DNA of 30,062 bases from a virus. Positions 2,659-13,079 of this stretch are shown one piece after another. Position 1 is the stretch's first letter. Each line of letters opens with the position of its first letter. The position numbers were made by a program, and so were the translations under genes. Below the pieces are notes generated by a model. It was not told the origin of the DNA. It searched no databases and saw nothing but the letters and a program-made list of their open reading frames with translations. The stretch is taken from the IMG/VR virus record IMGVR_UViG_3300032665_000140, positions 1-30,062 of that record; one strand, written 5' to 3'.

Positions 2659-2962
2659 AATGTAATTATATCATCTTCCCCGTTCTCAGCATTTTCACAG
2701 TTTCAAATTTGATCAAAATGTTAATGGGCATTTATTTTGTATGATACATAAATTTTTTTTCAAAAGCAAAAAATAATAGTCCGCCCGAAATGTCCGAATT
2801 GTAAGCATTCTGCCCTCAAAATGTGGTGTACATCACAAAAATAAATTAAAAAATGTCCAATTTGTGTGCATTTTGGAGTTGAAAATGTCAGTGGGTTCTG
2901 TTATACTTACAGTATTGAAAGTTAATAAAGGTTATTAACTAGAAAAAAGAAAGGACAATAAA
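2659..2962 (+). promoter_or_regulatory. Intergenic regulatory cassette A with TGTCAGTGG promoter
   Basis: 304-base gene-free stretch. Holds TGTCCGAAT at 2791 and TGTCCAATT at 2854 (9-bp repeat module), a CRP-like palindrome TGTGGTGTACATCACA at 2822-2837, and a promoter: TTGAAA (2879-2884), TGTCAGTGG from 2886, and extended -10 TGT-TATACT (2902-2907). Transcription would start near 2914 and read the 2963 gene. The left part (2659-2700) carries the minus-strand promoter of the 42-aa gene. Confidence 0.65.
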
Positions 2963-3148
2963 ATGTCACTAGTAGTAAAAAACGAAATCTGTTCAGTACA
3001 CACAGAATGTCAAAACGAGTTCTACCTAGAGTTCGCTAACTGCGAAACTTGCGGAATTAAAATCCTCGTAGACTATGAGTTCAATACAGGTGAACAAATC
3101 AAGTTCAACTGTCATAACTGCGGAGATGGAAATACTCTCCAAATGTGA
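2963..3148 (+). CDS. Zinc-ribbon protein, 61 aa
   Basis: C27-x2-C30 (CETC) and C50-x2-C53 (CHNC) form a classic two-knuckle zinc ribbon; C10, H13 and C16 are extra. Ribosome site AAAGGA upstream of ATG. First gene behind cassette A. A CRP-like palindrome (3144-3159) overlaps its stop codon. Possibly a transcription or nuclease accessory factor, but zinc ribbons this small are not diagnostic. Confidence 0.75.
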   Translation: MSLVVKNEICSVHTECQNEFYLEFANCETCGIKILVDYEFNTGEQIKFNCHNCGDGNTLQM

Positions 3149-3209
3149 GTCAAATCACACAGACACAACGGCGTGTCGAGTTGATTTTCTCGAAATAGTG
3201 TGATAGTAT
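3144..3209 (+). promoter_or_regulatory. CRP-like palindrome plus TTGATT/TAGTAT promoter
   Basis: TGTGAGTCAAATCACA (3144-3159) is a full TGTGA-N6-TCACA palindrome overlapping the stop codon of the zinc-ribbon gene. It is followed by CGGCGTGTCG (3169-3178) and, two bases on, TTGATT (3181-3186)-N17-TAGTAT (3204-3209) with an extended TGA. The block CGGCGTGTCG-N2-TTGATTTTCT recurs at 4221 with the same spacing. Likely promoter for the 3349 operon. Confidence 0.6.
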
Positions 3210-3249
3210 TTCACCATAAAATTAAATAAAGAAAAATCCTAGTGAGCCT

Positions 3250-3293
3250 GTGAGCCTTAGCAAATAATCCGAAAGGTGAGCCTAAGCAAATAA
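3250..3293 (+). repeat. Direct repeat, 18 bp, period 26
   Basis: GTGAGCCTTAGCAAATAA (3250-3267) and GTGAGCCTAAGCAAATAA (3276-3293) differ at one base; a partial copy GTGAGCCT begins at 3242. They lie in the long leader between the 3204 promoter and the 3349 gene. Role unknown. Confidence 0.7.
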
Positions 3294-3348
3294 CAGCAAA
3301 TAATCTAGCCAACAAAAGAAAAAGAAAGTATCTTGAAAGGATAACTAA

Positions 3349-3585
3349 ATGAATATAAATGAATACTATGAAACAGTTCGCAACGATATTGCGAAAGAGT
3401 TCGGCTTAGAGGCTGGCGGTTATGCTCCCGCTCCCCGCTATGCGTTACCTATAACTATCGCACAGCGTATTAACGCTAAATATCCTAGCGAGTTTAGCGT
3501 AAGTCGTTTTGATAGAAAGTTAAACCCTAAGGCTGTGTATATCGCACAGCGTTACATCTCTCTAGTAATGAAAGGTGGCAACTAA
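3349..3585 (+). CDS. Hypothetical protein, 78 aa
   Basis: Not recognised. Start chosen for the GAAAGGA upstream. Basic, with a proline-rich turn (APAPRYALP) and a helical C-terminal half, compatible with a small DNA-binding protein but without a firm motif. Followed at one base by the 3587 gene through AAAGGTGGCAACTAATATG, the same leader found again before the 6114 gene. Confidence 0.7.
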   Translation: MNINEYYETVRNDIAKEFGLEAGGYAPAPRYALPITIAQRINAKYPSEFSVSRFDRKLNPKAVYIAQRYISLVMKGGN

Positions 3586-3586
3586 T

Positions 3587-3745
3587 ATGTCATACTCTTT
3601 CGATAAATCTTATTCCCGTTGGGATAACCTAGCAGATGAATACCAATCTATGCTAGATGAATTGAATAGTGAAAAATTAACCGAGCAAGAATTGCAATCG
3701 GTATTAGTTGCAGTTGATGACTTTGACTTAGATGAGGTGCTTTAA
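3587..3745 (+). CDS. Acidic small protein, 52 aa
   Basis: ATG at 3587 directly after the previous stop, ribosome site AAAGGTGG at proper spacing. Strongly acidic (many D/E, residues 15-52), a composition common in phage inhibitor or DNA-mimic proteins, though nothing specific is seen. Stop and next start overlap (TAATG). Confidence 0.6.
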   Translation: MSYSFDKSYSRWDNLADEYQSMLDELNSEKLTEQELQSVLVAVDDFDLDEVL

Positions 3746-3846
3746 TGAATGACCCGTGGCTTCTATTTGCAGGTGCAGTACAACTAGATCACCTAACAGA
3801 TGAACAACTTGAAATCGTAAACGATATTTTTAAAGATTGGAAATAA
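3745..3846 (+). CDS. Small protein, 33 aa
   Basis: Starts on the last base of the previous stop (TAATG) and ends 6 bases before the RKDY gene. Sequence LTDEQLEIVNDIFKDW is helical and amphipathic. Unrecognised; coupling on both sides is the main support. Confidence 0.5.
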   Translation: MNDPWLLFAGAVQLDHLTDEQLEIVNDIFKDWK

Positions 3847-3852
3847 AATAAA

Positions 3853-4035
3853 ATGATGAGCCGTAAAGACTATGTAAAAGTAGCAGATATTCTCGCTAGT
3901 GTCCGCAATGATTTGGATCGTGAAACTATGTCGCATTTAATTGAAAAGTTTAGCGATTTATTTTTTGCTGATAATCATAACTTCTCACCTACAAGATTTG
4001 AATCTGCTTGTTATAAAGAGACTACCTTAGTGTAG
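3853..4035 (+). CDS. RKDY-family small protein, paralogue 1
   Basis: 60 aa. One of three paralogues in the window (others at 5381 and 5553) sharing RKDY-x3-A-x-I/V near the N-terminus, a central E/D-x-L-V-x2-F block, and a C-terminal DN-x-R/N-F-x4-RF-x4-C. This layout is familiar from hypothetical proteins of actinobacterial phages; function unknown. Starts MMSRKDY; the second Met is equally possible. Its stop lies inside the arm of a hairpin (4018-4039). Confidence 0.75.
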   Translation: MMSRKDYVKVADILASVRNDLDRETMSHLIEKFSDLFFADNHNFSPTRFESACYKETTLV

Positions 4036-4039
4036 TCTC
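4018..4039 (+). terminator. Hairpin overlapping a stop codon, abutting TTGACA
   Basis: GAGACTAC (4018-4025) pairs perfectly with GTAGTCTC (4032-4039), 6-base loop. No T-tract follows; instead TTGACATTCCC begins at 4040. A copy of TTGACATTCCC, also leading into CCTGGGC-TGTCCGA, occurs at 7388. Terminator or RNA-processing hairpin. Confidence 0.5.
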
Positions 4040-4178
4040 TTGACATTCCCCGATTTTTTGCCCTGGGCTGTGTCCGATATGTCCGAATTGTACTGTGGTG
4101 TAGTTCACAAATGCCACGCTCCACATAGTGATACTACTGGCGGGTATACTAGACAGTAGCGATTTTATGTGTTATACT
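4040..4178 (+). promoter_or_regulatory. Regulatory cassette B
   Basis: In order: TTGACATTCCC, CCTGGGC (4062), TGTCCGATATGTCCGAATTG (4071-4090; two 9-bp TGTCCGANN repeats), CRP-like TGTGGTGTAGTTCACA (4094-4109), and a promoter TAGACA (4150-4155)-N17-TATACT (4173-4178) with TG one base ahead of the -10. The TGTCAGTGG block is missing here. Confidence 0.6.
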
Positions 4179-4220
4179 TCCAGTATTGAAAAATTAAATA
4201 AAAAAAATATTGGCAACACA

Positions 4221-4261
4221 CGGCGTGTCGCCTTGATTTTCTAGCAAATGTCTGCTAGAAT
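4221..4261 (+). promoter_or_regulatory. Promoter TTGATT-N17-TAGAAT behind CGGCGTGTCG
   Basis: CGGCGTGTCG (4221-4230), two bases, TTGATT (4233-4238), 17-base spacer ending TGC, TAGAAT (4256-4261). Same block and spacing as at 3169-3209. Would drive the 4295-5006 genes from a start near 4268. Confidence 0.65.
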
Positions 4262-4294
4262 ACTCGTATTAAACAATAAAGAAAGGTGGTCAAA

Positions 4295-4492
4295 ATGACT
4301 ACACTAACAAATGAAGTAAATCTAGGCAAAATGCTTGGAATTTCTGCTCAACTAGAAAATCGTATGATTCACGATTTTAACAATGGTGGATTAGTTTCCA
4401 CTTATGGATTAAATACTCGTCAGCGTATTATCGCTCTAAAAGTTTTCTTAGGTGGAAATGCCCCTAAGTGTACTTGTATCAAGTGTCTCTAA
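4295..4492 (+). CDS. Small protein with C-terminal CTCIKC motif, 65 aa
   Basis: ATG at 4295 follows GAAAGG with good spacing; an upstream GTG at 4286 would add three residues but overlaps the ribosome site. Predicted helical, ending in C-x-C-x2-C, a possible half metal site. Unrecognised. First gene behind the 4256 promoter. Confidence 0.7.
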   Translation: MTTLTNEVNLGKMLGISAQLENRMIHDFNNGGLVSTYGLNTRQRIIALKVFLGGNAPKCTCIKCL

Positions 4493-4507
4493 AGAAAGGA
4501 CTATAAA

Positions 4508-4702
4508 ATGTCACTTAGTTTAATTAACAAAATTTATCAAGGTAAGACTATCACTTGGAAAGGTGAATTCTTTACCATAACAAAAGTAACTGCTGTAAAT
4601 GATGAGCAGGAAATTTTTAACGCAATTATCACAGGTTTAGTTGATAATAAAGATTATGGCTTGACTTGTTCTTATCAAGAATTGTGGGAGGCTGCTAAGT
4701 GA
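4508..4702 (+). CDS. Hypothetical protein, 64 aa
   Basis: Ribosome site AAAGGA before ATG. Short beta-rich protein (residues 10-50) with a WKGEFFTITKV stretch. Not recognised. Its last codon provides the start of the next gene (GTGA overlap). Confidence 0.7.
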   Translation: MSLSLINKIYQGKTITWKGEFFTITKVTAVNDEQEIFNAIITGLVDNKDYGLTCSYQELWEAAK

Positions 4703-4812
4703 TTATTCTAACATACTTAACTCGTGCTGCACTATTGCTAATGTCAGTGCCTCTTGGTATAATAATGACACAAATTGTAAAAGAACTAATGAATGATGAG
4801 GCTTGGAAATAA
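4699..4812 (+). CDS. Single-span membrane micropeptide, 37 aa
   Basis: GTG at 4699 overlaps the previous stop (GTGA). One hydrophobic segment (about residues 9-27) followed by a charged tail; ends TAATG into the next gene. Its codons for LMSVPLGIIM contain a full copy of the TGTCAGTG/TATAAT promoter (4742-4763). Confidence 0.55.
   Translation: MIILTYLTRAALLLMSVPLGIIMTQIVKELMNDEAWK
4742..4763 (+). promoter_or_regulatory. Intragenic promoter, TGTCAGTG type
   Basis: TGTCAGTG begins at 4742 and TATAAT lies at 4758-4763, the same 16-base offset as in the other nine copies. It is inside the 37-aa membrane gene, reading toward the signal-peptide gene at 4812. Confidence 0.55.
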
Positions 4813-5006
4813 TGAAAAAATTATTGTTCGCTCTAGTAGTTTTGGCTCTATTGGTAACAACTCAAAATGCTAATGCGAAAACTTATCGCACACCCGCCGT
4901 TCATACACTAAGTATCTCAAAATCGTATCACTACGGATACACTTATCATAGATTAACTCGTATTCGCTGTGCTTATTCGGGCTGTCGCTCAAAAAGCCAG
5001 CCTTGA
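4812..5006 (+). CDS. Secreted small protein with signal peptide
   Basis: 64 aa. Residues 1-22 (MKKLLFALVVLALLVTTQNANA) form a clear Sec signal ending in a consensus ANA cleavage site. The mature part is about 42 residues, rich in Tyr/His/Arg, with two Cys (CAYSGC) that could form a disulfide outside. ATG at 4812 overlaps the previous stop; an upstream TTG would spoil the signal peptide. A secreted phage microprotein may act on the envelope (inference). Confidence 0.7.
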   Translation: MKKLLFALVVLALLVTTQNANAKTYRTPAVHTLSISKSYHYGYTYHRLTRIRCAYSGCRSKSQP

Positions 5007-5031
5007 CAAAGTTTCTGCCGTATGGTAGGAT
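5003..5031 (+). promoter_or_regulatory. Promoter TTGACA-N17-TAGGAT
   Basis: Consensus -35 TTGACA (5003-5008), 17-base spacer ending TGG, -10 TAGGAT (5026-5031). The -35 overlaps the end of the signal-peptide gene. Drives the 5067 gene. Confidence 0.7.
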
Positions 5032-5066
5032 TAGACACTAACAACAACAAAAGAAAAGGATAGAAA

Positions 5067-5240
5067 ATGACAAACGAAACAACAGGCAAGCAGTACCAAA
5101 TTGGCGACTTGTTCACAACACAACGCTCAAAGGTAACAGGTGTAATCAAGGAGATTGTGCCAACATCATCACCAAAGCGTACTCGTGTTAAGTTGTCGGT
5201 AGACGGAAAAGACCGTTGGACAACTTTCTCCGCTAAGTAA
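5067..5240 (+). CDS. Conserved-looking phage protein, 57 aa
   Basis: ATG follows AAAAGGATAG. Compact beta-rich protein: F/T-TTQRSKVTGVIKEIVP, then RTRVKLSVDGKDRWTTF. The arrangement resembles short SH3-like hypothetical proteins seen in actinobacteriophages; function unknown. Monocistronic behind a strong promoter and followed by an inverted repeat. Confidence 0.7.
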   Translation: MTNETTGKQYQIGDLFTTQRSKVTGVIKEIVPTSSPKRTRVKLSVDGKDRWTTFSAK

Positions 5241-5241
5241 G

Positions 5242-5259
5242 TTTGGTTAAATAACCAAA
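5242..5259 (+). repeat. Perfect inverted repeat after the 57-aa gene
   Basis: TTTGGTTA-AA-TAACCAAA, 18 bases, directly after the stop at 5240. The 2-base centre suits a protein-binding palindrome better than a terminator hairpin, and no T-tract follows. Confidence 0.5.
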
Positions 5260-5302
5260 TGTCCCGAGCAAGACATAAAAAGGCTCAACACAACCCAAAT
5301 AA

Positions 5303-5354
5303 TGATATAATGTTAAGGCGGGATTGCCGAATAATATCTCACACTCCCGCCTTA
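5303..5354 (+). promoter_or_regulatory. Promoter with 5'-terminal mRNA hairpin
   Basis: Extended -10 TGA-TATAAT (5303-5311), no good -35. The predicted start is near 5318, so the transcript would begin inside TAAGGCGGGA (5314-5323), which pairs with TCCCGCCTTA (5345-5354). A GC-rich stem at the 5' end just before the ribosome site (AAAGGATAG) could stabilise the mRNA or act as an operator. Confidence 0.5.
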
Positions 5355-5380
5355 CACTTAACAAAAGGATAGAAAATAAA

Positions 5381-5551
5381 ATGACAAGAAAAGACTACAT
5401 TGTAATCGCAGAAGTTTTGAGAAAATTTTCAACCTCTTTAGAAATTACAGAGTTTGAAGATTTGGTAAGCGAATTTTCTGAAGTAATGAAAAAAGATAAT
5501 GATAGGTTTGACACAGAAAGATTTTCTCGTGCTTGCTGGGGGAGAAAATAA
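5381..5551 (+). CDS. RKDY-family small protein, paralogue 2
   Basis: 56 aa, MTRKDYIVIAEVL...EFEDLVSEF...DNDRFDTERF. The start at 5381 matches the two paralogues and follows AAAGGATAG; a longer frame from 5324 runs through the leader hairpin and is rejected. Ends one base before the next paralogue begins. Tandem arrangement implies local duplication. Confidence 0.8.
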   Translation: MTRKDYIVIAEVLRKFSTSLEITEFEDLVSEFSEVMKKDNDRFDTERFSRACWGRK

Positions 5552-5552
5552 A

Positions 5553-5732
5553 ATGATGACAAGAAAAGACTATGTAGCAACCGCAGAAATTATTAACTCA
5601 TACGCAGACGAAATTAAATTAAATGTGTTGGAAGATTTGGTAAATGATTTTATTGAAATGTTTGCTACTGATAATGAAAGATTTGACTCGGATAGATTTT
5701 GGGAAGAATGTTTCAAGAATACAAATCACTAA
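5553..5732 (+). CDS. RKDY-family small protein, paralogue 3
   Basis: 59 aa, MMTRKDYVATAEII...LEDLVNDF...DNERFDSDRF...EC. Start set by similarity to paralogues 1 and 2 and by GGGGAG upstream; frame upstream of 5553 is not part of the gene. Function unknown; acidic in its C-terminal half. Confidence 0.8.
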   Translation: MMTRKDYVATAEIINSYADEIKLNVLEDLVNDFIEMFATDNERFDSDRFWEECFKNTNH

Positions 5733-5845
5733 TGGAAAAAGTAAAACGCATACAAGAGCTTAGGCGTAGCAATGCTGCTACGCCTTTGCGAAATAAAAAA
5801 AAATATAATCGCAAACAAAAATATAAAAATAAATTTGACAACTGA
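5732..5845 (+). CDS. Very basic peptide, 37 aa (doubtful)
   Basis: ATG shares a base with the previous stop (TAATG) and the frame gives a Lys/Arg-rich peptide with about 15 basic residues. However, it contains the terminator-like hairpin at 5762-5785 and the A-rich stretch after it encodes the Lys run. Either a genuine basic tail gene or a chance frame through a terminator. Confidence 0.35.
   Translation: MEKVKRIQELRRSNAATPLRNKKKYNRKQKYKNKFDN
5762..5788 (+). terminator. Terminator-like hairpin after RKDY pair
   Basis: AGGCGTAGC (5762-5770) pairs with GCTACGCCT (5777-5785), 6-base loop, followed by TTG. Perfect 9-bp GC-rich stem with a short U run. Ends the 5381-5732 operon ahead of cassette C. 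Confidence 0.6.
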
Positions 5846-5852
5846 TCCGTTT

Positions 5853-5970
5853 TGGGCCCAGGGAATGTCCGATTTGCACCATTTGTCTGTCAATAGCAAC
5901 ACGCCGTATTAAGATGTGTTTTTTATCACAGTGTTTTAAGTAGACAGATGTCAGTGGGGTATGCTATACT
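5853..5970 (+). promoter_or_regulatory. Regulatory cassette C with TGTCAGTGG promoter
   Basis: GGGCCCAGGG (5854), TGTCCGATT (5866) followed in 9-bp steps by TGCACCATT and TGTCTGTCA, ACACGCCG (5901), CRP-like TGTGTTTTTTATCACA (5915-5930), then promoter TAGACA (5941-5946), TGTCAGTGG (5949) and TGC-TATACT (5965-5970). Reads into the 5999 gene. Confidence 0.65.
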
Positions 5971-5998
5971 TACGGCATAGAAAGAAAGAAGGTCTTAA

Positions 5999-6112
5999 AT
6001 GAACCTAGAAGAATACAAGGCGTATGTCCTTGCTACCCGCCAACAGTCCACGATGTCAGTGGTCAATGATATAATCAACTCAACAAAGAAAGAAAAGGAA
6101 GGTGGCAACTAA
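5999..6112 (+). CDS. Small protein, 37 aa, hosting an internal promoter
   Basis: ATG follows GAAGG. Unrecognised helical peptide. Codons 19-26 (MSVVNDII) are exactly the TGTCAGTGG...TATAAT promoter of the next gene, so the protein sequence is constrained by the promoter. The Ser/Lys/Glu-rich end carries the ribosome site AAGGAAGGTGG. Confidence 0.5.
   Translation: MNLEEYKAYVLATRQQSTMSVVNDIINSTKKEKEGGN
6054..6075 (+). promoter_or_regulatory. Intragenic TGTCAGTGG promoter
   Basis: TGTCAGTGG from 6054, TGA-TATAAT with TATAAT at 6070-6075, lying in frame in the 37-aa gene. Would give a separate mRNA for the 6114-6598 genes. Confidence 0.6.
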
Positions 6113-6113
6113 T

Positions 6114-6335
6114 ATGCTAATCTCGGAAGCCTTACAAGGCAAATATGTAAAGTCCTCACAAGGACAAGGAATTATCCAATTCGCAGATTTTCGTAAAGAT
6201 ATGCACCACTCTACCCCCGAGGGTTATCTTGCTTATGCTTGCAAGGTTCGCCCACACTGGAACGGAACGGGATTTCCAAAGCCCGATTTCTATACAACAG
6301 TGTATGTCGGATTGGATAGTGAACTAATTGACTAA
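6114..6335 (+). CDS. Hypothetical protein, 73 aa
   Basis: ATG at 6114 with AAGGAAGG upstream; the GTG at 6102 lies in the ribosome site and is rejected. Contains aromatic and basic residues (RPHWNGTGFPKPDFYTTVYVG), beta-rich. Unrecognised. Confidence 0.7.
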   Translation: MLISEALQGKYVKSSQGQGIIQFADFRKDMHHSTPEGYLAYACKVRPHWNGTGFPKPDFYTTVYVGLDSELID

Positions 6336-6474
6336 GTTTATTTTTTATACTTCTATTGGGGTGGAGGCTGATACTCAAGACGAAGCCGTCCAATGGTTCG
6401 ATTATCAAATGGGATTAACCCAATTAAATAATGATATTTATGTCGAAGAGATTTTAGGAGATTATAATGGGTAA
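6328..6474 (+). CDS. Small protein, 48 aa, TTG start
   Basis: TTG at 6328 overlaps the previous gene by 8 bases; GGATAG lies upstream. The protein (MTKFIFYTSIGVEADTQDEAVQWF...) has a normal alpha/beta composition with no rare-residue bias. It ends 8 bases inside the next gene, so the region between two accepted genes is filled exactly. Confidence 0.5.
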   Translation: MTKFIFYTSIGVEADTQDEAVQWFDYQMGLTQLNNDIYVEEILGDYNG

Positions 6475-6598
6475 TCTTGCTGATGAACTAAATATTTTTA
6501 TCTGCGATGAATGCGACACGCTGGCAGAAATGTCAGTGGTCGGTGATACAATATCTATAACAAAATGTAAGTGCTTAACTCTAGATTGGAATAACTAA
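6467..6598 (+). CDS. Zinc-knuckle miniprotein, 43 aa, hosting a promoter
   Basis: AGGAG 8 bases before ATG. C13-x2-C16 and C34-x-C36 could bind one zinc. Codons 22-29 (MSVVGDTI) encode the TGTCAGTGG promoter copy at 6531. Stop and next start overlap (TAATG). Confidence 0.6.
   Translation: MGNLADELNIFICDECDTLAEMSVVGDTISITKCKCLTLDWNN
6531..6552 (+). promoter_or_regulatory. Intragenic TGTCAGTGG promoter
   Basis: TGTCAGTGG from 6531; TACAAT at 6547-6552 preceded by TGA; offset 16 as elsewhere. Reads into the 6598 gene. Confidence 0.55.
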
Positions 6599-6792
6599 TG
6601 TATACACTAACAACTGCCTATGATGGCGAGAAGCCATTCCATAGTTTTCAATTCGCTGACGCACTAGCAGCGTTTGAGACTTTCGTTAAAATTAACGACT
6701 GGGGTATGGCTAAAGAATATGCAACTTATAATCTATCGCTACCCGACGGCAAAATGTACACAAAGAACTTCTACCGACCAACTGGCAAGTAA
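6598..6792 (+). CDS. Hypothetical protein, 64 aa
   Basis: Starts on the last base of the preceding stop. Alpha/beta protein (FQFADALAAFETFVKIND...). Not recognised. The next promoter begins at the first base after its stop codon. Confidence 0.7.
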   Translation: MYTLTTAYDGEKPFHSFQFADALAAFETFVKINDWGMAKEYATYNLSLPDGKMYTKNFYRPTGK

Positions 6793-6814
6793 TGTCAGTG
6801 GCCTCTGCTATAAT
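6793..6814 (+). promoter_or_regulatory. TGTCAGTGG promoter directly after a stop codon
   Basis: TGTCAGTGG 6793-6801, TGC-TATAAT with TATAAT at 6809-6814, a perfect -10. Leader of about 22 bases to the ATG at 6844 containing AAAGGA. Confidence 0.65.
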
Positions 6815-6843
6815 ACTCTAACCCAACTAACAAAGGACAAAAA

Positions 6844-7053
6844 ATGACAGTAGCAATTGAACACAACCTAAAGTTTGTAACTGAACTTGATGAAAATCAT
6901 CCAACAGCAAAGCGTTTGCTTGCATTACCCTATGAAGCACAAGTGCAAATGCTTGAAAGCATGTTGCGAGACTTGGTAGGCCCTGCAGTATTGCCACGCA
7001 TTAATGAACTTAATGAAGGCAACACTTATGCAAAATTGGTGGTATGTCTTTAA
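6844..7053 (+). CDS. Hypothetical protein, 69 aa
   Basis: Mostly helical (MTVAIEHNLKFVTELDENHPTAKRLLALPYEAQVQMLESMLRDL). Unrecognised. AAAGGA ribosome site. Its stop overlaps the next start. Confidence 0.75.
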   Translation: MTVAIEHNLKFVTELDENHPTAKRLLALPYEAQVQMLESMLRDLVGPAVLPRINELNEGNTYAKLVVCL

Positions 7054-7268
7054 TGGCTAAACACCCACCAGTCGGGAGTGCCTCATGGCACTCCGTTTTT
7101 GCAAATGATGAATGCAAAGTTTGGCAGGACGGCAATGATGATATCTTCTTCAAGGTAGCTATCAAAGGTCAACGTGTAAAATATTTTTACAATGAAACTG
7201 CACACAGTGACGTTGCACGTTATTGCTCGGACGAATTAGGAATTTCTTATTGGTCCGTATTAAACTAA
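7053..7268 (+). CDS. Hypothetical protein, 71 aa
   Basis: ATG at 7053 (TAATG overlap) is preferred over the in-frame ATG at 7044 because GGTGG sits 10 bases upstream of 7053. Beta-rich start, one Cys in each half, Tyr/Trp-rich. Unrecognised. Confidence 0.65.
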   Translation: MAKHPPVGSASWHSVFANDECKVWQDGNDDIFFKVAIKGQRVKYFYNETAHSDVARYCSDELGISYWSVLN

Positions 7269-7285
7269 TTTAGAAAGGTTAGTGA

Positions 7286-7375: not shown

Positions 7376-7387
7376 TTGTTTTGCACT

Positions 7388-7541
7388 TGACATTCCCGCA
7401 AAATTTTCCTGGGCCGTGTCCGATATGTCCGAATTGTCTGTCAAGACAACACGCCGATTACGGCGTGTGTTTTTTATCACATTACAATGTTAGTATAATT
7501 GGGTTTACGGATGGACAAATGTCAGTCCTGTATGCTAGAAT
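7388..7541 (+). promoter_or_regulatory. Regulatory cassette D with TGTCAGT promoter
   Basis: TTGACATTCCC (7388), CCTGGGC (7409), TGTCCGATATGTCCGAATTG (7417-7436), TTGTCTGTCAAGACAA, the hairpin terminator at 7450-7476, CRP-like TGTGTTTTTTATCACA (7466-7481), a possible -10 TATAAT (7494), then TGGACA, TGTCAGTCC (7520) and TGC-TAGAAT (7536-7541). Drives the DUF932 gene. Confidence 0.65.
7450..7476 (+). terminator. Rho-independent terminator inside cassette D
   Basis: ACACGCCG-ATTA-CGGCGTGT (7450-7469) followed by GTTTTTTA. Perfect 8-bp GC-rich stem with T-tract. The T-tract is shared with the CRP-like palindrome, so termination and the operator overlap. Confidence 0.75.
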
Positions 7542-7573
7542 AGGACTACATTCAAAAAAGAAAGAAGGCTCAA

Positions 7574-8608
7574 ATGACCAATGTCATGTCACAAGTTCAC
7601 AAGTCCGAAGTAGAAACTGGCGAGGTTTCTCTTGCTGTATCTACCCGCAATAATCCTGCTTGGCATAGTTTTGCTAACAAGGTTTTCACAAAAGATGAGG
7701 AAGTCACCACCGCACAAATGCTTGATGGTGCTAAGTTGTCAAATTGGAATGTTCAACTTGAATCTGTTAGTGATTTACTCGCAGATAACTACACTACTGT
7801 ATCCGACAATTTCCTAGTTGTTCGTGATAATCCTTATACAGCAGGACAGAAAGATGTTCTATCTGTTGTAGGTTCTCGCTACAAGACTGTACAGAATGAA
7901 GATTTATTCTCATTCGCAGATAATCTACATGACGGCAATCAAGATGTTTATTGGGAATCAGCAGGTTCTCTAAAGAATGGTCGTGTCGTGTTCGGTACAA
8001 TGTCAATTCCCCGCACAATGGTGCTTGACCCTAATGGTGCTAACGATACAACTAATCTTTATCTAGTTGTCTATACATCACACGATGGTTCTGTTGCTGT
8101 TCAATCTGCAATCACACCTGTGCGTGTTATGTGTCAAAATACACTTAATTTCGCTATGAAAAAGGCTAAGCAATCTTTCAAGATTCGCCACACTCAAACT
8201 GTGGACGGAAAAATTGCTGCTGCTCGTGAGGCTCTAGGTCTTACATTCAACTACATGGACGAATTCGAAAAGCAAGCACAAGAGTTGTTTGCCATCGAGG
8301 TAAACAATTCTAAGTTTAACGAAATCATCAACAAGATGTACCCAAAGCCCGAAGCAGATGTTAAGGGTTCAATTAAAAAGTGGGAGAATAAAATTATCAC
8401 CATCGGTGATTTATACAATGCTCCACACAATGCGAACATCAAGAACACCGCATGGGGTGTTGTTAATACTCTCACCGAGCGTATTGACTACCATCGCACA
8501 GCCCGCAAGGGTGGCGATTCGCTAATGGCGGGTGCTAGTGGTTTTGACCCCGTTGTTACAGCGGAAAAAAATAAAATTGTTAAGCAGGTTTTAGCACTTG
8601 CGAAATAA
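7574..8608 (+). CDS. DUF932 / phage-plasmid-like protein (TIGR03299 type)
   Basis: 344 aa, the largest protein of the left arm. Typical family marks: AWHSFANKVF near residue 29, then the block YLVVYTSHDGS...SAITPVRVMCQNTL (about residues 163-192) that defines DUF932, and a helical C-terminal half. The length matches the family (about 300-370). The family occurs in phages, plasmids and mobile elements; its biochemical role is unknown. Own promoter (7536) and own terminator (8616), so a one-gene unit. Confidence 0.9.
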   Translation: MTNVMSQVHKSEVETGEVSLAVSTRNNPAWHSFANKVFTKDEEVTTAQMLDGAKLSNWNVQLESVSDLLADNYTTVSDNFLVVRDNPYTAGQKDVLSVVGSRYKTVQNEDLFSFADNLHDGNQDVYWESAGSLKNGRVVFGTMSIPRTMVLDPNGANDTTNLYLVVYTSHDGSVAVQSAITPVRVMCQNTLNFAMKKAKQSFKIRHTQTVDGKIAAAREALGLTFNYMDEFEKQAQELFAIEVNNSKFNEIINKMYPKPEADVKGSIKKWENKIITIGDLYNAPHNANIKNTAWGVVNTLTERIDYHRTARKGGDSLMAGASGFDPVVTAEKNKIVKQVLALAK

Positions 8609-8615
8609 TTAAAAG

Positions 8616-8647
8616 GTGGGGGGCGAAAGCTCCCCACTATTTTTTTG
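8616..8647 (+). terminator. Strong rho-independent terminator
   Basis: GTGGGGGGC-GAAA-GCTCCCCAC (9-bp stem with one G-T, GNRA tetraloop) followed by TATTTTTTTG. Ends the DUF932 transcript. Confidence 0.9.
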
Positions 8648-8691
8648 ATCTGTTGCAATGTATAAATATTCATAATGATGTATAAATATGC

Positions 8692-8800
8692 AGGGGCCCA
8701 GGGATTTTTTCTCAGGCGGCGTCGGGCGTGTCGTGTGATATTAAACACATTTACGATTACGGCGTGTCGTGTTTACGATGTCAGTGGCTTCTGCTATACT
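8692..8800 (+). promoter_or_regulatory. Regulatory cassette E with TGTCAGTGG promoter
   Basis: GGGGCCCAGGG (8692), CRP-like TGTGATATTAAACACA (8733-8748), TTTACGA at 8749 and 8772 (23 bp apart) with CGGCGTGTCG between them, then TGTCAGTGG (8779) and TGC-TATACT (8795-8800). No TGTCCGA repeat here. ATGTATAAATAT occurs twice just upstream (8658 and 8679). Confidence 0.65.
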
Positions 8801-8824
8801 GATGTCCTCATGAAAGGAAAACTA

Positions 8825-8989
8825 ATGAACTGGATGAAATGGGATTATGTATGCCCACAATGTGATGCCAATATTGAAATGACTCTCAAGTCTGATGGAC
8901 AAGATGGGCATATTTCTTTATGTCCAAAATGTAGGGGTCATATGACTCTAATGTCAGTGGTAGATGCTACTATAGGGGAGAATAAATAA
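8825..8989 (+). CDS. Zinc-ribbon protein, 54 aa, hosting a promoter
   Basis: C10-x2-C13 (CPQC) and C33-x2-C36 (CPKC), a standard zinc ribbon. ATG at 8825 follows AAAGGA; an upstream in-frame ATG at 8810 lacks a ribosome site. Codons 43-50 (MSVVDATI) contain another promoter copy. Stop overlaps next start. Confidence 0.75.
   Translation: MNWMKWDYVCPQCDANIEMTLKSDGQDGHISLCPKCRGHMTLMSVVDATIGENK
8952..8973 (+). promoter_or_regulatory. Intragenic TGTCAGTGG promoter
   Basis: TGTCAGTGG from 8952, TGC-TACTAT with -10 at 8968-8973. Reads into the 8989 and 9096 genes. Confidence 0.5.
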
Positions 8990-9096
8990 TGACTTTTTGT
9001 AAATCCCCCGCCTGTTATAATGAACGGGAACTTGACAAGAGTAATAGTTATAGGCTAGAATACTGCCTTCAATGTCGTATAGATAGGAATAAATAA
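8989..9096 (+). CDS. Zinc-binding miniprotein, 35 aa
   Basis: C4-x4-C9 and C26-x2-C29. Coupled on both sides by TAATG overlaps (8989 and 9096). Unrecognised but the four-Cys layout and exact overlaps support it. Confidence 0.6.
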   Translation: MTFCKSPACYNERELDKSNSYRLEYCLQCRIDRNK

Positions 9097-9362
9097 TGAT
9101 AGTTAAACTACAAGTACCTAATAATGCCCAAATGGGCTATGGGTTGGGCAAATGTATTCAGTATGGCATTGAATACAATGTGTTGGATAATTTACAAGTT
9201 GAATTAACTGGCACAGATGAAATTAAACTAACAAAGATGTGTGTGGCATTTATGGGCAAAGTCCTAGAAGTATCTAAAACTAAGCCTACACTTGGTGATT
9301 TGCCAAAGCATGAGGTTCAGTATGCTAGAACTAATAGACCTATTCAGACCCGCCGAAAATAG
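9096..9362 (+). CDS. Hypothetical protein, 88 aa
   Basis: Starts on the last base of the previous stop. Basic C-terminus (RTNRPIQTRRK). Alpha/beta composition, not recognised. Confidence 0.75.
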   Translation: MIVKLQVPNNAQMGYGLGKCIQYGIEYNVLDNLQVELTGTDEIKLTKMCVAFMGKVLEVSKTKPTLGDLPKHEVQYARTNRPIQTRRK

Positions 9363-9364
9363 AA

Positions 9365-9394
9365 TTGACACGGCATACTGCCGTGTGATAGAAT
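9365..9394 (+). promoter_or_regulatory. Promoter with palindromic operator in the spacer
   Basis: TTGACA (9365-9370)-N18-TAGAAT (9389-9394) with extended TGA. CACGGCATACTGCCGTG (9369-9385) is a perfect 7-bp inverted repeat around TAC that fills the spacer, so a bound repressor would block polymerase. Drives the 9432 gene. Confidence 0.7.
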
Positions 9395-9431
9395 ACCACT
9401 AATAACCCAACAAAAGAAAAGGAAAAAAATA

Positions 9432-9854
9432 ATGGCTTCAAGAGCAATTTCAGTAAAGGTAGCAACACCAAAAGTAATCGCAGCACTACAAGCAAAGTTG
9501 GCAGAGGTTCAATCTAACTATGCTAATCAAGGCAAGTTACAGGCAGAGTATGATGAGGCTTACAAGCAGTATCAAGCAGACCTAACTGCTTATGCTATCA
9601 AGCACATTGACTTGGCAACTAACTTCCGCACAAGCCTTCGTGGATACAATGGTAATTGTGTGAACATTGACTATGATGTACCACTAGACCTAGAAGGTTA
9701 TCCAACAGCACCCGAGCGTGGCTATACTCCAATGTATGAAAGAGACTACAATTCTACTGTTGAGGAAATTGGCAACGCAATCCGTATTCTGCAAATGACA
9801 GATGAGGAAACTGTTTCTACTTCTACCTTCAAGACTATCGCACAGTATCTCTAA
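9432..9854 (+). CDS. Coiled-coil-like protein, 140 aa
   Basis: Residues 14-55 form a Gln/Glu/Lys-rich helix (VIAALQAKLAEVQSNYANQGKLQ), then a Tyr-rich middle and an acidic helix. Not recognised; similar small proteins are frequent in actinophages. Single-gene unit between a regulated promoter and a hairpin terminator, suggesting high or conditional expression. Confidence 0.8.
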   Translation: MASRAISVKVATPKVIAALQAKLAEVQSNYANQGKLQAEYDEAYKQYQADLTAYAIKHIDLATNFRTSLRGYNGNCVNIDYDVPLDLEGYPTAPERGYTPMYERDYNSTVEEIGNAIRILQMTDEETVSTSTFKTIAQYL

Positions 9855-9868
9855 TCAAATAAACAACT

Positions 9869-9897
9869 GGGTGGGGAGTCTTGACTTCCCACCCCTT
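9869..9897 (+). terminator. Terminator whose loop holds the next -35 box
   Basis: GGGTGGGGAGTC (9869-9880) pairs with GACTTCCCACCC (9883-9894), one G-T pair, then CCTTATC. TTGACT (9881-9886), the -35 of the next promoter, lies across the loop and right arm. Confidence 0.7.
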
Positions 9898-9909
9898 ATC
9901 TGATAGGAT
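9881..9909 (+). promoter_or_regulatory. Leaderless promoter for the 23-aa peptide
   Basis: TTGACT-N17-TAGGAT (9904-9909) with extended TGA. The -10 box ends exactly 6 bases before the ATG at 9916, so transcription should start on the start codon. Confidence 0.65.
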
Positions 9910-9915
9910 ACCGCT

Positions 9916-9987
9916 ATGCTTACCAACTTCTATTTATTCTGCTTAACTATAATTGTATTTCTATTCGTGATTGGACAAATACTATAA
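9916..9987 (+). CDS. Single-span membrane micropeptide, 23 aa, leaderless
   Basis: One hydrophobic helix (FYLFCLTIIVFLFVIG). No ribosome site; -10 box placed for a leaderless mRNA. Ends TAATG into the 9987 gene. Confidence 0.55.
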   Translation: MLTNFYLFCLTIIVFLFVIGQIL

Positions 9988-10364
9988 TGGGTGCAAGAGT
10001 TAATTTCGTATTCAAGACTGAGTTAGATAAACCTAACATTGTTCTTTATAGCCATTGGGGCGCAACTTCTTGGCGTGAGGATTTGGCTATTGCTATTGAC
10101 AAAGCAAAACCTCGTATCGCATTGGGTGACATTCCTTATGCTACCCGCATCATCATTGACCAACTAACTAAAGATGGACGGGATTCCGAAACAGGCTACG
10201 GTATCTCTCTAGCCACAGATGAAGAGATTCTAAAAGGCTTATTTGATTTTCCAGTTGAAATTGACATGACAACTCAAATGGTTAATGATGAAGGTCATTG
10301 GCATTCGTTTGAATCATTCGTAGAATATATCTCGGAGGTTATCAACTATCATGATGGGGTATAG
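9987..10364 (+). CDS. Conserved-looking phage protein, 125 aa
   Basis: Begins MGARVNFVF, then LYSHWGATSWREDLAIAIDKAKPRIALGDIPYATRIIIDQL. This pattern is familiar from uncharacterised actinobacteriophage proteins; no catalytic motif is evident. Coupled to the membrane micropeptide upstream and overlapping the 48-aa gene downstream. Confidence 0.8.
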   Translation: MGARVNFVFKTELDKPNIVLYSHWGATSWREDLAIAIDKAKPRIALGDIPYATRIIIDQLTKDGRDSETGYGISLATDEEILKGLFDFPVEIDMTTQMVNDEGHWHSFESFVEYISEVINYHDGV

Positions 10365-10497
10365 TGCTGCTGATGTAGTTAAAATGATTAACGGATTAGA
10401 TGAAGCGTATAATTCTAATCTACCGCCAAAGCTTGAAGAAAATATTGGAACAACAATAAATTTTCTTGAAGGCTTATTGGCAGAAAATCGGATCTAA
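10351..10497 (+). CDS. Small helical protein, 48 aa
   Basis: ATGATG at 10351 inside the previous gene's end, GGAGG 12 bases upstream. All-helical (AADVVKMINGLDEAYNS...ENIGTTINFLEGLLAEN). Unrecognised. Last gene before a 325-base gene-free stretch. Confidence 0.6.
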   Translation: MMGYSAADVVKMINGLDEAYNSNLPPKLEENIGTTINFLEGLLAENRI

Positions 10498-10503
10498 AAT
10501 ACA

Positions 10504-10540
10504 ACTGTTATAGTCGTCAAATGACTGTTATAGTCGTCAA
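10504..10540 (+). repeat. Tandem direct repeat, 17 bp, period 20
   Basis: ACTGTTATAGTCGTCAA occurs identically at 10504-10520 and 10524-10540, just after the stop of the 48-aa gene. Not seen elsewhere in the window. Confidence 0.85.
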
Positions 10541-10550
10541 GAGGACATAA

Positions 10551-10612
10551 CCTTACTATAAAATGAGGTTTTATGAGGGTTAGATTTAAAATTATCTTAT
10601 TTTATAGTTAGG
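10551..10612 (+). repeat. Imperfect inverted repeat, 17 bp arms
   Basis: CCTTACTATAAAATGAG (10551-10567) and CTTATTTTATAGTTAGG (10596-10612) are inverted copies matching at 15 of 17 positions with a 28-base spacer. Could be paired binding sites or a long weak hairpin. Confidence 0.65.
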
Positions 10613-10618
10613 TTTCAT

Positions 10619-10665
10619 GGTAGTAATCATACACACCCCCCATGGGGGTGTAAAGGATTACTACC
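10619..10665 (+). other. Large two-tier stem-loop
   Basis: Outer stem GGTAGTAATC/GATTACTACC (10 bp, perfect), 4x4 internal loop ATAC/AAAG, inner stem ACACCCCC/GGGGGTGT (8 bp, perfect), loop CAT. Followed on + by six A, not T, so it is not a normal terminator in that direction. The symmetric internal loop looks like a folded RNA or single-stranded DNA element. Confidence 0.8.
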
Positions 10666-10680
10666 AAAAAAGGCTACAGC

Positions 10681-10816
10681 GTGTCCCACTTGACAAAGTG
10701 GGCACGATGCCCCCAGGGAAACGGACATTTCGGACATATAGTATTTAACCCATTTACGAAGTGATGTAAATCACCTTTACGATGACTTGACGCCAACATT
10801 TACGATGTGGTAGAAT
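10681..10816 (+). promoter_or_regulatory. Regulatory cassette F and leaderless promoter
   Basis: Hairpin CCCACTT-GACA-AAGTGGG (10685-10702), GCCCCCAGGG, then the TGTCCGA repeat in reverse orientation (CGGACATTTCGGACA, 10722-10736). Next a CRP-like GTGATGTAAATCAC (10761-10774) and TTTACGA at 10753, 10776 and 10799 (23 bp apart). Promoter TTGACG (10787-10792)-N18-TAGAAT (10811-10816), extended TGG. The -10 ends 6 bases before the ATG at 10823. Together with the three repeats upstream it fills the gene-free stretch 10498-10822. Confidence 0.65.
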
Positions 10817-10822
10817 TTCGCT

Positions 10823-11044
10823 ATGACACTAGACATATATGAAATAGATTATTCAGTCTCTCCATTTGGTATCAATATGTGGGAGATTTATGATGAAACT
10901 GGGCAATATCTAATGGATTTTGATAATATGATTGATGCCCATAATTGGTGTAATAGCCAAGGTGAAGATTATACTATGCATCTATTATCAACCTATCATA
11001 GACAATTTGAGAAAGATATTTTTAACACACCCGCCAATTCTTGA
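10823..11044 (+). CDS. Hypothetical protein, 73 aa, leaderless
   Basis: Acidic alpha/beta protein (MTLDIYEIDYSVSPFGINMWEIYDETG...DAHNWCNSQGEDY). No ribosome site; promoter geometry predicts a leaderless mRNA. Its stop lies in a hairpin with the next -35 (11031-11050). Unrecognised. Confidence 0.75.
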   Translation: MTLDIYEIDYSVSPFGINMWEIYDETGQYLMDFDNMIDAHNWCNSQGEDYTMHLLSTYHRQFEKDIFNTPANS

Positions 11045-11070
11045 CGGGTGTCAGTGGTCAATGCTATAAT
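11041..11070 (+). promoter_or_regulatory. TTGACG / TGTCAGTGG / TATAAT promoter
   Basis: The clearest copy: TTGACG (11041-11046), TGTCAGTGG (11049-11057), TGC-TATAAT (11065-11070), N18 spacer. TTGACG falls in the right half of a hairpin ACACCCG...CGGGTGT that includes the preceding stop. Confidence 0.75.
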
Positions 11071-11100
11071 TCTATTCTACCCAACGAAAGGACACAAATT

Positions 11101-11313
11101 ATGCCAAAGTATGATAACGAAGGCAACGAGTTGTTTTTGTATACAGTTATGAAAAATGTCGAGCAAACTTTTGTTCAACAGATTTGGGCACAAGATTCCG
11201 AGGAAGCGGAACTATTTGCCGAAACTCTAATTGCCCTTGATGACAAGTGGAAATTAACCAACGAGGAAGTTTATTACATTACTCCCAACATCGCTTTTGA
11301 TGAGGAGGAGTAA
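11101..11313 (+). CDS. Acidic small protein, 70 aa
   Basis: Starts MPKYDNEG after GAAAGGA; a longer frame from 11041 would include the promoter and is rejected. Acidic (DSEEAELFAETLIALDD; ends DEEE), no motif. Followed after 2 bases by the Api92-like gene. Confidence 0.75.
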   Translation: MPKYDNEGNELFLYTVMKNVEQTFVQQIWAQDSEEAELFAETLIALDDKWKLTNEEVYYITPNIAFDEEE

Positions 11314-11315
11314 TA

Positions 11316-12020
11316 ATGCCAAACTGGGTATATAATGGATTAACCGCACAAGGTCCAAAAGAATCTATCGAGAAAATGAAAGCCCAATTAAATAAACCAT
11401 TTGTTGATTATATCGAGGCCAATGGTGATTTGGCTTATGATGTCAAACAAACTAAGTATTCTAATCCTGTATTTAGTTTTAGAAACATCATTGCTCCCAC
11501 CGACCTTGAGGCATATAAGCAACAGCCTGTACGTTCAGATAAAGATATATCTGACCCTTATTGGTGGGCAGATAATCAACGCTTATCTCAAACTGATAAT
11601 TCATGGTATAACTGGAATATCCGTAACTGGGGTGTTAAATGGGATGTTGCTGTATCTAGCGAAGATAAACATCCCGATACATATATGGAAGAAACTGAGG
11701 ATGAATGGACTGCTTCTGTATATTATAACTTTAATACTGCATGGGGAATTCCCGAACAAGCATTAATTACACTCTCATCTCAATATCCCGACCTTCTCTT
11801 CACATTATCATATGAAGAAGAAACAGGCTGGGGTGGTGAAATGGAAATCTTAAGTGGTGTAGTTATTAGCCATGGTCAATATGATTCCAAGTGTAGAGAC
11901 TGTGATTCAACAGACACATTAGAGTATTGCGAAGATTGCGAAAATGAGGTATGCTCTGCTTGTGGTTTTGGAGCAGAAGAAGCCTGCGATATACATAGGG
12001 AGGTTGCACATGTCGGATGA
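11316..12020 (+). CDS. Api92/DUF1281-like ferredoxin-fold protein with C-terminal zinc finger
   Basis: 234 aa. Starts MPNWVYNGLTAQGP, the usual opening of DUF1281/Api92-like proteins, with the family marks WNIRNWGVKWDV (about 100-111), FNTAWGIPEQAL and a late SYEEETGWGG. The C-terminal 45 residues add a Cys-rich module (C-x2-C...C-x2-C...C-x2-C) that resembles a treble-clef or B-box-like zinc finger and is unusual for the family. Family role unknown; found on plasmids and phages. Short leader with GGAGG. Confidence 0.8.
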   Translation: MPNWVYNGLTAQGPKESIEKMKAQLNKPFVDYIEANGDLAYDVKQTKYSNPVFSFRNIIAPTDLEAYKQQPVRSDKDISDPYWWADNQRLSQTDNSWYNWNIRNWGVKWDVAVSSEDKHPDTYMEETEDEWTASVYYNFNTAWGIPEQALITLSSQYPDLLFTLSYEEETGWGGEMEILSGVVISHGQYDSKCRDCDSTDTLEYCEDCENEVCSACGFGAEEACDIHREVAHVG

Positions 12021-12285
12021 ATTAGACCCATATCTACAGCGTATGGTCGAAGCAGGTATGGACGGTGCAGATATTTTGCATGGTCATCTTAAATCGCTTA
12101 TGCTTGAGGCGGAAAATAATATGCTGACTAGAAACAAAGATGAGCACAAGAAGTATTGGGCTGGACAACTAGACGCACTAACAGAACTATATCAATTAAC
12201 TTATGCCATTGCTTTTGCAAAGGGGGAACAGAATTCAAACAATCAGATTTTTCGAGGGATTGTAACAACCCCTAAAAATGGCTAA
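12010..12285 (+). CDS. Hypothetical helical protein, 91 aa
   Basis: ATG at 12010 behind GGGAGG, overlapping the previous gene by 11 bases; longer frame from 11944 rejected. Helical, with an N-terminal acidic segment and a middle of KDEHKKYWAGQLDALTELYQL. Unrecognised. Confidence 0.75.
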   Translation: MSDELDPYLQRMVEAGMDGADILHGHLKSLMLEAENNMLTRNKDEHKKYWAGQLDALTELYQLTYAIAFAKGEQNSNNQIFRGIVTTPKNG

Positions 12286-12292
12286 AAAGCCC

Positions 12293-12322
12293 TTGACGGA
12301 CCTATACCGTATGTGTTATAAT
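12293..12322 (+). promoter_or_regulatory. Promoter TTGACG-N18-TATAAT
   Basis: TTGACG (12293-12298), 18-base spacer ending TGT, TATAAT (12317-12322). Leader of about 30 bases with AAGGAG before ATG 12361. Confidence 0.75.
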
Positions 12323-12360
12323 ATCACGTTCTATATCCAAGATCTTAAGGAGATTAACTA

Positions 12361-12663
12361 ATGTCAGTATCGGAAGCAATGTTTACTCAAACTAACTCTT
12401 ATCTAGATAATTTAAAGCGTGATTACCAATTTGGAGGTATTGCCTTTCTATACATGTGGGATATCATCCGTGATACATTTGAGGAGATTGAACAGGATCC
12501 TAGTGCCTATGATTGCATTCCCGTCCCAAGCACAGATCTATATAAAGTTTGGCAAGCATACCAAAACAATCCATGGGGCGGATTTGACGTAGAGCAGGCG
12601 GATGTAGTAAACTGGCTATCGGCAGAAGACCTAATTCAAGAATGGGTAGAGGAGGATAACTAA
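12361..12663 (+). CDS. Hypothetical acidic protein, 100 aa
   Basis: AAGGAG ribosome site. Trp/Asp/Glu-rich (WGGFDVEQADVVNWLSAEDLIQEWVEEDN at the end), helical start. Unrecognised. Stop overlaps next start (TAATG). Confidence 0.8.
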   Translation: MSVSEAMFTQTNSYLDNLKRDYQFGGIAFLYMWDIIRDTFEEIEQDPSAYDCIPVPSTDLYKVWQAYQNNPWGGFDVEQADVVNWLSAEDLIQEWVEEDN

Positions 12664-12950
12664 TGATATATGACAAAGAACAAAAACAGATTGTTAAGAT
12701 ATTTGGCAACAGCGAAATATCACCAGCAGGCTTGGCATACAAAATGTTGGGGGAATCTAGATATGTTAATGAGTCTATCATACAATACATGGTTAATTAC
12801 ATTATCATAATGGGTACCCGTAATCCCGACAAACTGCCACCATATCTACAGAATGTCCACGCTTGGGCAAATGAGATGTATCAAATGTTAGATAAAATGG
12901 ATATGACCTCAAGAACTAATAGCCGAAGTGCATTAAACCATAAAGATTGA
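12663..12950 (+). CDS. Hypothetical protein, 95 aa, last gene of the + arm
   Basis: Coupled to the previous gene. Helical, with a hydrophobic stretch (IIQYMVNYIIIMG) and Met-rich C-terminal half. Unrecognised. Followed 39 bases later by a strong terminator. Confidence 0.75.
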   Translation: MIYDKEQKQIVKIFGNSEISPAGLAYKMLGESRYVNESIIQYMVNYIIIMGTRNPDKLPPYLQNVHAWANEMYQMLDKMDMTSRTNSRSALNHKD

Positions 12951-12989
12951 CTGAGCCAATATATAGGGGGTTGGGCCTTATATATCACA

Positions 12990-13024
12990 AACCCGTTAGG
13001 CATCGCCTAGCGGGTTTTCTTTTT
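12990..13024 (+). terminator. Strong terminator closing the + arm
   Basis: AACCCGTTAGGC (12990-13001) pairs with GCCTAGCGGGTT (13005-13016) with one G-T pair and a 3-base loop, followed by TTCTTTTTG. A smaller inverted repeat ATATATAGG/CCTTATATAT lies just ahead (12960-12985). Confidence 0.9.
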
Positions 13025-13032
13025 GTACAAAA

Positions 13033-13079
13033 TGTCCGATTTGTCCATTTTTAACAGGGACAATGTGATTTGCATCACA
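13033..13079 (+). promoter_or_regulatory. Operator cassette G without promoter
   Basis: TGTCCGATT-TGTCCATTT (9-bp repeats from 13033) and a perfect CRP-like palindrome TGTGATTTGCATCACA (13064-13079). No gene follows on +, so here the sites are not simple promoter controls; they lead into the repeat array. Confidence 0.6.

Follow-up and report, generated by a model that had tools for sequence, protein, structure and literature searches.

The viral record IMGVR_UViG_3300032665_000140, analysed here over its whole length of 30,062 bases (referred to as the window), carries short plus-strand genes over approximately 0-12.95 kb and minus-strand genes over most of the remainder, and it is best read as carrying the arm of early genes from a large actinobacteriophage. 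The early proteins mostly have no match to known families, a tRNA was the sole match in an Rfam search, and no named phage was matched by the left 15 kb in a megablast search. A preliminary description of this DNA had proposed that the gaps between the left-arm operons reuse one set of short motifs as a modular operator system, in which several regulators are stacked on each promoter. This proposal is supported by conservation in relatives, by shuffled controls and by the helical placement of CRP-like and TGTCCGA sites, to which several proteins would bind. That description did not recognise what the main promoter part is: by its sequence and spacing it corresponds to the actinobacterial RecA-NDp/PafBC DNA-damage promoter.

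PafBC-type promoters in the early arm

The -10 part of the repeated gaps follows the pattern TGTCAGTG-N5-TG-N-TANNNT, and by its letters it is the RecA-NDp (PafBC-type) promoter form, i.e. TGTCRGTG, exactly 8 bp, and TANNNT, for which the consensus tTGTCRgtg-8-TannnT has been published (PMC5656591). It has been reported that the adaptation of sigma-A RNA polymerase by PafBC takes place at a -26 motif, and that PafBC becomes active when it binds single-stranded DNA (ssDNA) (PMC11804915). The window contains ten copies of the box, nine exact and one with a mismatch, all on the plus strand and none on the minus strand, while shuffled sequences gave a mean of 1.1 with two mismatches allowed. The TG-extended -10 promoter that the preliminary description had assigned to the cassettes is indeed present in the gaps at 2.8, 5.9, 7.4 and 8.7 kb, where it is of the PafBC/RecA-NDp type; it also occurs within operons (at 4742, 6054, 6531, 6793, 8952 and 11049), and in the gaps at 4.05 and 10.7 kb ordinary -35/-10 promoters stand in its place. 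In the majority of the ten boxes, the -10 is followed after approximately 20-60 bp by a start codon whose ribosome-binding site is plausible. The boxes share with the RecA-NDp/PafBC promoters of Actinobacteria the TGTCRgtg core, the 8-bp spacer, the TANNNT -10 and the correct orientation before genes (PMC5656591, PMC6789036, PMC11804915). They differ in that the genes behind them are early genes of a phage and not repair genes, and in usually having a -35-like hexamer and phased CRP-like and TGTCCGA sites upstream. Their dependence on PafBC is presumed. Membership of the LexA (SOS) regulon was considered and rejected, as the LexA box GAAC-N4-GTTC was not enriched: there is no exact copy in the arm and one at 23.2 kb, and the total was not above chance.

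Table 1. Positions of promoter boxes, upstream sites and other features in the window
Feature	Position	Strand	Remark
PafBC/RecA-NDp type promoter, TGTCAGTG-N8-TATACT, 2.8 kb cassette, before gene 2963-3148	2886-2907	+	exact match
PafBC-type promoter within operon, before gene 4803 or 4812	4742-4763	+	exact match
PafBC-type promoter, 5.9 kb cassette	5949-5970	+	exact match
PafBC-type promoter within operon, before gene 6102 or 6114	6054-6075	+	exact match
PafBC-type promoter within operon, upstream of gene 6598-6792	6531-6552	+	exact match; open reading frame list
PafBC-type promoter before gene 6844-7053	6793-6814	+	exact match
PafBC-type promoter with one mismatch (TGTCAGTC), before DUF932 gene	7520-7541	+	orthologous promoter kept in most relatives
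PafBC-type promoter, 8.7 kb cassette, -35 = TTTACG, 17-bp spacer	8779-8800	+	exact match
PafBC-type promoter within operon	8952-8973	+	exact match
PafBC-type promoter, -35 TTGACG (11041), before gene 11101	11049-11070	+	exact match
CRP-like palindrome TGTGGTGTACATCACA, centre 72.5 bp before -10	2822-2837
CRP-like palindrome TGTGAGTCAAATCACA	3144-3159
CRP-like palindrome, centre 43.5 or 71.5 bp before a TATACT	4094-4109
CRP-like palindrome, centre 42.5 bp before -10	5915-5930
CRP-like palindrome, centre 62.5 bp before -10	7466-7481
CRP-like palindrome, centre 53.5 bp before -10	8734-8749
CRP-like palindrome AGTGATGTAAATCACC, centre 43.5 bp before TAGAAT at 10811	10760-10775
TGTCCGA	2791-2797	+
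TGTCCGA x2, 9-bp period	4071-4086	+
TGTCCGA	5866-5872	+
TGTCCGA x2, 9-bp period	7417-7432	+
TGTCCGA x2 reversed, one unit with mismatch	10721-10736	-
CGGCGTGTCG abutting -35/-10 promoter (TTGATT 3181, TAGTAT 3204)	3169-3209	+	promoter read from sequence; pattern in relatives
CGGCGTGTCG abutting -35/-10 promoter (TTGATT 4233, TAGAAT 4256)	4221-4261	+	pattern in relatives
CGGCGTGTTG, inverted CGGCGTGTCG element	5897-5906	-
ACACGCCG-ATTA-CGGCGTGT inverted repeat, then T run; terminator-like	7449-7475	+
GGGCGTGTCG and CGGCGTGTCG elements	8724-8769	+
-35/-10 promoter TTGACG-18-TAGAAT, 10.7 kb cassette	10787-10816	+
DUF932 protein gene, early, 344 amino acids	7574-8608	+	PF06067 2e-54; query for finding relatives
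Strong terminator-like hairpin, closes early arm	12989-13017	+
Noncoding arm end: three CRP-like palindromes (13064, 13245, 13372) and eight TTTACGA	13064-13670	.	promoter role not evident
WhiB-like gene, marker of actinobacterial virus	25664-25990	-	1.5e-9 and 6e-13

Conservation of the promoter array

Relatives were gathered with the DUF932 early protein, which yielded 49 viral loci. In the 44 low-GC records among them the box was present without exception, with 277 exact copies in total against a single match for a reversed-pattern control, and within each record all copies lie on one strand, except for one copy in G041; the five distant 50%-GC records of the set have none. The spacing is equally strict, since a spacer of eight gave 242 forward and 0 reverse matches and spacers of seven or nine gave 0. 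When 2.9 million viral contigs of IMG/VR were scanned with the strict motif, 41 stretches were recovered, with up to 23 copies in a single contig, and all are kin of this lineage by translated comparison. In three relatives of 107-116 kb, whose genes are otherwise almost all on one strand, every box falls within a single divergent island of 13-16 kb that is made up of small genes, with 0 outside. Unbiased counting of 8-mers in the islands placed TGTCAGTG at the top (199 observed vs 8.2 expected, reverse complement 0), followed by words of CGGCGTGTCG, and TGTCCGA words also ranked high. The CRP-like, TGTCCGA and CGGCGTGTC parts were found again in 36-38 of 38 non-redundant relatives, and the blocks are kept in the same arm of related genomes. 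Exact CCCAGGG and CCTGGGC words are rare in relatives, where a GC-rich palindrome of other sequence was seen by eye at that place.

A second, distant group of the lineage (L248-L256: G053, G077, G074, G063) has 16-23 PafBC-type promoters per contig that lack the TG before the -10. DnaA boxes (TTATCCACA) were also observed in relatives, 69 of them in 26 of 38 loci (L127-L170), nearly confined to the early island in full-length contigs. They were left out of the shared promoter logic because none is present in the window and those of relatives are not phased.

Upstream sites and helical phasing

The CRP-like palindrome has the form aTGTGAT-N4-ATCACAt (TGTGA-N6-TCACA), and 359 distinct sites were found across the set, with TTTACG adjoining the palindrome at a fixed distance and in a single orientation. 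Counted back from the first base of the -10, palindrome centres lie at 42.5, 52.5, 62.5, 72.5 or 84.5 bp, and among the periods tested 10.5 bp fitted best (n=161, R=0.757). Orthologous promoters are not independent, and phasing was therefore retested on the modal distance for each downstream-gene cluster; the 17 clusters gave R=0.895 (p ~1e-6). Contigs outside the first set again showed phasing (n=73, peaks at 42.5/52.5/62.5/72.5), with 10.0 bp marginally better there. The TGTCCGA sites behave similarly, with centres at 35-36, 44-47, 98 and 107-109 bp before the -10 (R=0.86) and the inverse TCGGACA at 64 bp. Such placement of both site types at helical-turn steps from the -10 would be expected if the bound proteins act on the same RNA polymerase. 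A palindrome with centre positions recurring each helical turn is shared with class I promoters of the CRP/FNR family (E. coli lac type; GlxR/CRP in Actinobacteria). The sites described here differ in being combined with a -26 activator box, and their binder would be a CRP-family protein.

The promoters of the array might be nothing else than plain sigma-A extended -10 promoters, with shared spacer letters and flanks that were spread by copying of linker DNA and recombination between early genes and that have no regulatory role. Phages of this sort have mosaic early regions, and a usable -35 and a TGN -10 are present in many of the promoters. This explanation is nevertheless very improbable, because the distance of the CRP-like site shifts in steps of approximately 10 bp among related promoters, which is neither copied nor random, because TGTCRGTG is kept in relatives while the following 8 bp vary, and because TTTACGA (as TTTACGR) and the DnaA boxes of the same gaps, which served as internal controls, are unphased (R ~0.35). 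What the sequences show is an array specific to the lineage and to one strand, with fixed spacing, which does not extend beyond the early arm and has two more site types placed by helical turn.

Other repeated parts

The remaining parts were compared with 200 dinucleotide shuffles of eight gaps, and no shuffle matched the observed count for any of them: exact TGTCCGA occurs 8 times (0.20 expected), CGGCGTGTCG 6 times (0.04) and GTGANNTNNATCAC 13 times (0.20), each of the latter two with one mismatch allowed, TTTACGA 13 times (0.47), CCTGGGC 4 times (0.10) and CCCAGGG 4 times (0.15). All the parts listed in the preliminary description were thus recovered where it had placed them, including the reversed TGTCCGA block of the 10.7 kb copy, but not all of them in every gap. 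For instance, the 2.8 kb gap has neither CCTGGGC nor CGGCGTGTCG, the 8.7 kb gap has no TGTCCGA, and TTTACGA is limited to 8.7, 10.7 and 13.1-13.7 kb. As a probe of viral contigs, TGTCCGA-N2-TGTCCGA proved too short, its matches being mainly due to chance and scattered over contigs without relation to the window. Two copies of a direct repeat, ACTGTTATAGTCGTCAA, lie at 10505-10540, immediately upstream of the 10.7 kb cassette. GCGTGTC is frequent at 30 bp, directly 5' of the -35, and in many promoters CGGCGTGTCG abuts the -35, where it probably serves as a further site for an activator or as an operator. WhiA, whose motif is GACAC (PMC3781837), was considered as the protein that binds CGGCGTGTCG/CGACACGCCG. 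All five bases of the motif agree, but a match of five bases is too weak, and WhiA is retained as a lead only.

TGTCCGA and CGGCGTGTCG could instead be operators of a phage repressor, in which case the arm would be mainly repressed and not activated. Repeated sites of mycobacteriophages, namely the stoperators of cluster A and the start-associated sequences of cluster K, are single repressor or translation-linked sites, whereas in the present lineage several site types are stacked, helically phased, on a host stress promoter type. Common to both is the repetition of a single class of sequence in front of many genes of a phage. The sites in question are short, asymmetric and present in many gaps in both orientations. 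Stoperators, however, are scattered over the whole genome, whereas these sites are nearly limited to the early island. No tyrosine integrase (PF00589) was found in 20 records (serine integrase was outside that search), and lysogeny is therefore unlikely. Furthermore, a phased TGTCCGA whose centre lies 45 bp before the -10 is more in keeping with an activator than with a blocker. We therefore regard repression of this kind as quite improbable.

Regulator genes and host

No WYL genes were detected in 23 records and no Crp helix-turn-helix genes in 20 virus records, so that neither a phage-borne PafBC nor a phage-borne Crp was detected. Because no WYL, Crp or integrase gene was detected in the phages, the PafBC and CRP-family binders would be derived from the host. 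WhiB genes, found in the window and in 14 other records, support an actinobacterial host. DUF932 matches in genome contigs were tried for a host call and gave two contigs from metagenome-assembled genomes (L176, L177), labelled Methylophilaceae and cyanobacterium; no host was assigned from them because both are probably mis-binned, closely related viral contigs.

Alternatively, the array may be real and the TGTCAGTG box be read by a phage factor, either a WhiB-like protein or a small protein not recognised as DNA-binding, acting with host RNA polymerase, and the RecA-NDp likeness would then be convergence or mimicry. The restriction of the array to one virus lineage would suit such a factor, as would the presence of WhiB-like genes in viruses whose early proteins mostly lack a known family. 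We consider this unlikely, since the letters, the spacing and the distance to the -10 fit a documented class of host promoters (PMC5656591). Furthermore, the WhiB gene is located outside the early arm, at 25.7 kb on the opposite strand, and is not obviously present first.

Comparison with Samistivirus

By the DUF932 early protein, the nearest named phages belong to Samistivirus (51-53% amino acid identity). In Samisti12, the homologous early genes occupy a 10,666-bp direct terminal repeat and their transcription opposes that of the structural genes. TCGGACAT occurs in their promoter gaps, with 6 copies in the terminal repeat vs 3 in the 112-kb core. The early strand of one repeat copy has five TGTC-N12-TAGANT sites, against a single one elsewhere, and LilMartin is alike. 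The early terminal-repeat region of these Streptomyces phages has in common with the present lineage the DUF932 homologue, short counter-transcribed genes, TCGGACAT gaps and degenerate promoters. It differs in having no exact TGTCRGTG-N8-TANNNT, no CRP-like palindromes, different GC-rich operators and Streptomyces hosts. Samistivirus-like traits present in our set are a divergent early island with a DUF932 gene, WhiB, a DnaE polymerase and ribonucleotide reductase.

Noncoding end of the arm and minus-strand genes

The block at 13.05 kb, which had been counted among the inter-operon cassettes, does not belong there, as it lies past the strong terminator-like hairpin and inside a convergent noncoding gap. 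Its three CRP-like palindromes are near-perfect, and its TTTACGA copies are set in units of approximately 24 bp (TTTACGAATnGATnnnATTCAC). The noncoding stretch at 12.95-13.8 kb probably holds the genome end, as synteny suggests, with thioredoxin and WhiB beyond the convergent noncoding gap. Two or more putative 2-oxoglutarate-Fe(II)/JmjC-type oxygenase genes are closely spaced on the minus strand (13820-14464, PF13640; 15018-15620, PF08007), and ThyX (19686-20384) and other uncharacterised genes lie in the same minus-strand stretch (13820-21007). Further minus-strand genes encode a subtilase-family protease (28279-29196) and a weak proteasome-subunit-like protein (24145-24690).

Proposed mechanism and significance

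We propose, with a probability of roughly 0.7, that the early arm is driven by an array of early promoters, most of them of the RecA-NDp/PafBC form, that makes use of host PafBC and an activator of the CRP family. In this mechanism, the sigma-A RNA polymerase of the host, adapted at the -26 box by host PafBC activated by ssDNA, would start the early promoters, while a host CRP-family protein on the upstream palindrome, and a further protein on the TGTCCGA repeats, would act on that polymerase from sites placed by helical turn. ssDNA exposed by entry of phage DNA, by replication or by breakdown of host DNA would render PafBC active and thereby boost the early genes. PafBC and CRP as the binders, their activating role and the ssDNA signal are all three inferred.

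Several points weigh against this proposal. The exact boxes are missing from 10 of the 11 named actinophage relatives tested, and Samisti12 and LilMartin keep only the degenerate TGTC-N12-TAGANT. Published PafBC promoters are -35-independent, but -35-like hexamers are common beside the boxes described here, and for this reason the box may merely boost basal sigma-A promoters. The CRP spacings are approximately 3 bp off the E. coli class I positions (-61.5, -71.5, -82.5, -92.5), as reckoned from presumed start sites. In addition, many of the viral records are fragments, so that missing regulator genes count weakly, and the presence of PafBC in the host, like that of the box before the repair genes of the host, is presumed.

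A further-reaching possibility, which we hold only tentatively and rather doubt, is that the early program of this lineage, in which no integrase was detected, is a copy of the host PafBC DNA-damage regulon. ssDNA, arising from infection or from prior ultraviolet damage, would then fire up to approximately 20 promoters at once, gated by cyclic AMP/CRP through the phased sites, and would provide a lytic switch that senses damage and nutrition and involves no regulator of the phage.

LexA-mediated reading of the host SOS alarm is known in temperate phages. In the literature searched for PafBC together with phages or prophages, the papers recovered deal with repair or with WYL regulators in defence systems; by title and abstract, none of them concerns phage promoters. 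The present case would be phage use of a host damage regulator, which is known in kind, here by way of PafBC-type promoters, and the promoter sequences suggest that the virus senses the DNA-damage alarm of its host to start its own program. If this is true, a virus lineage would be hijacking, for its lytic growth, the second damage pathway of Actinobacteria, which senses ssDNA, and a testable timer of early transcription would be at hand for actinobacterial viruses, for which cultured hosts are mostly lacking. The phased promoter set is, furthermore, a natural promoter library on how PafBC, CRP-like proteins and sigma-A combine.

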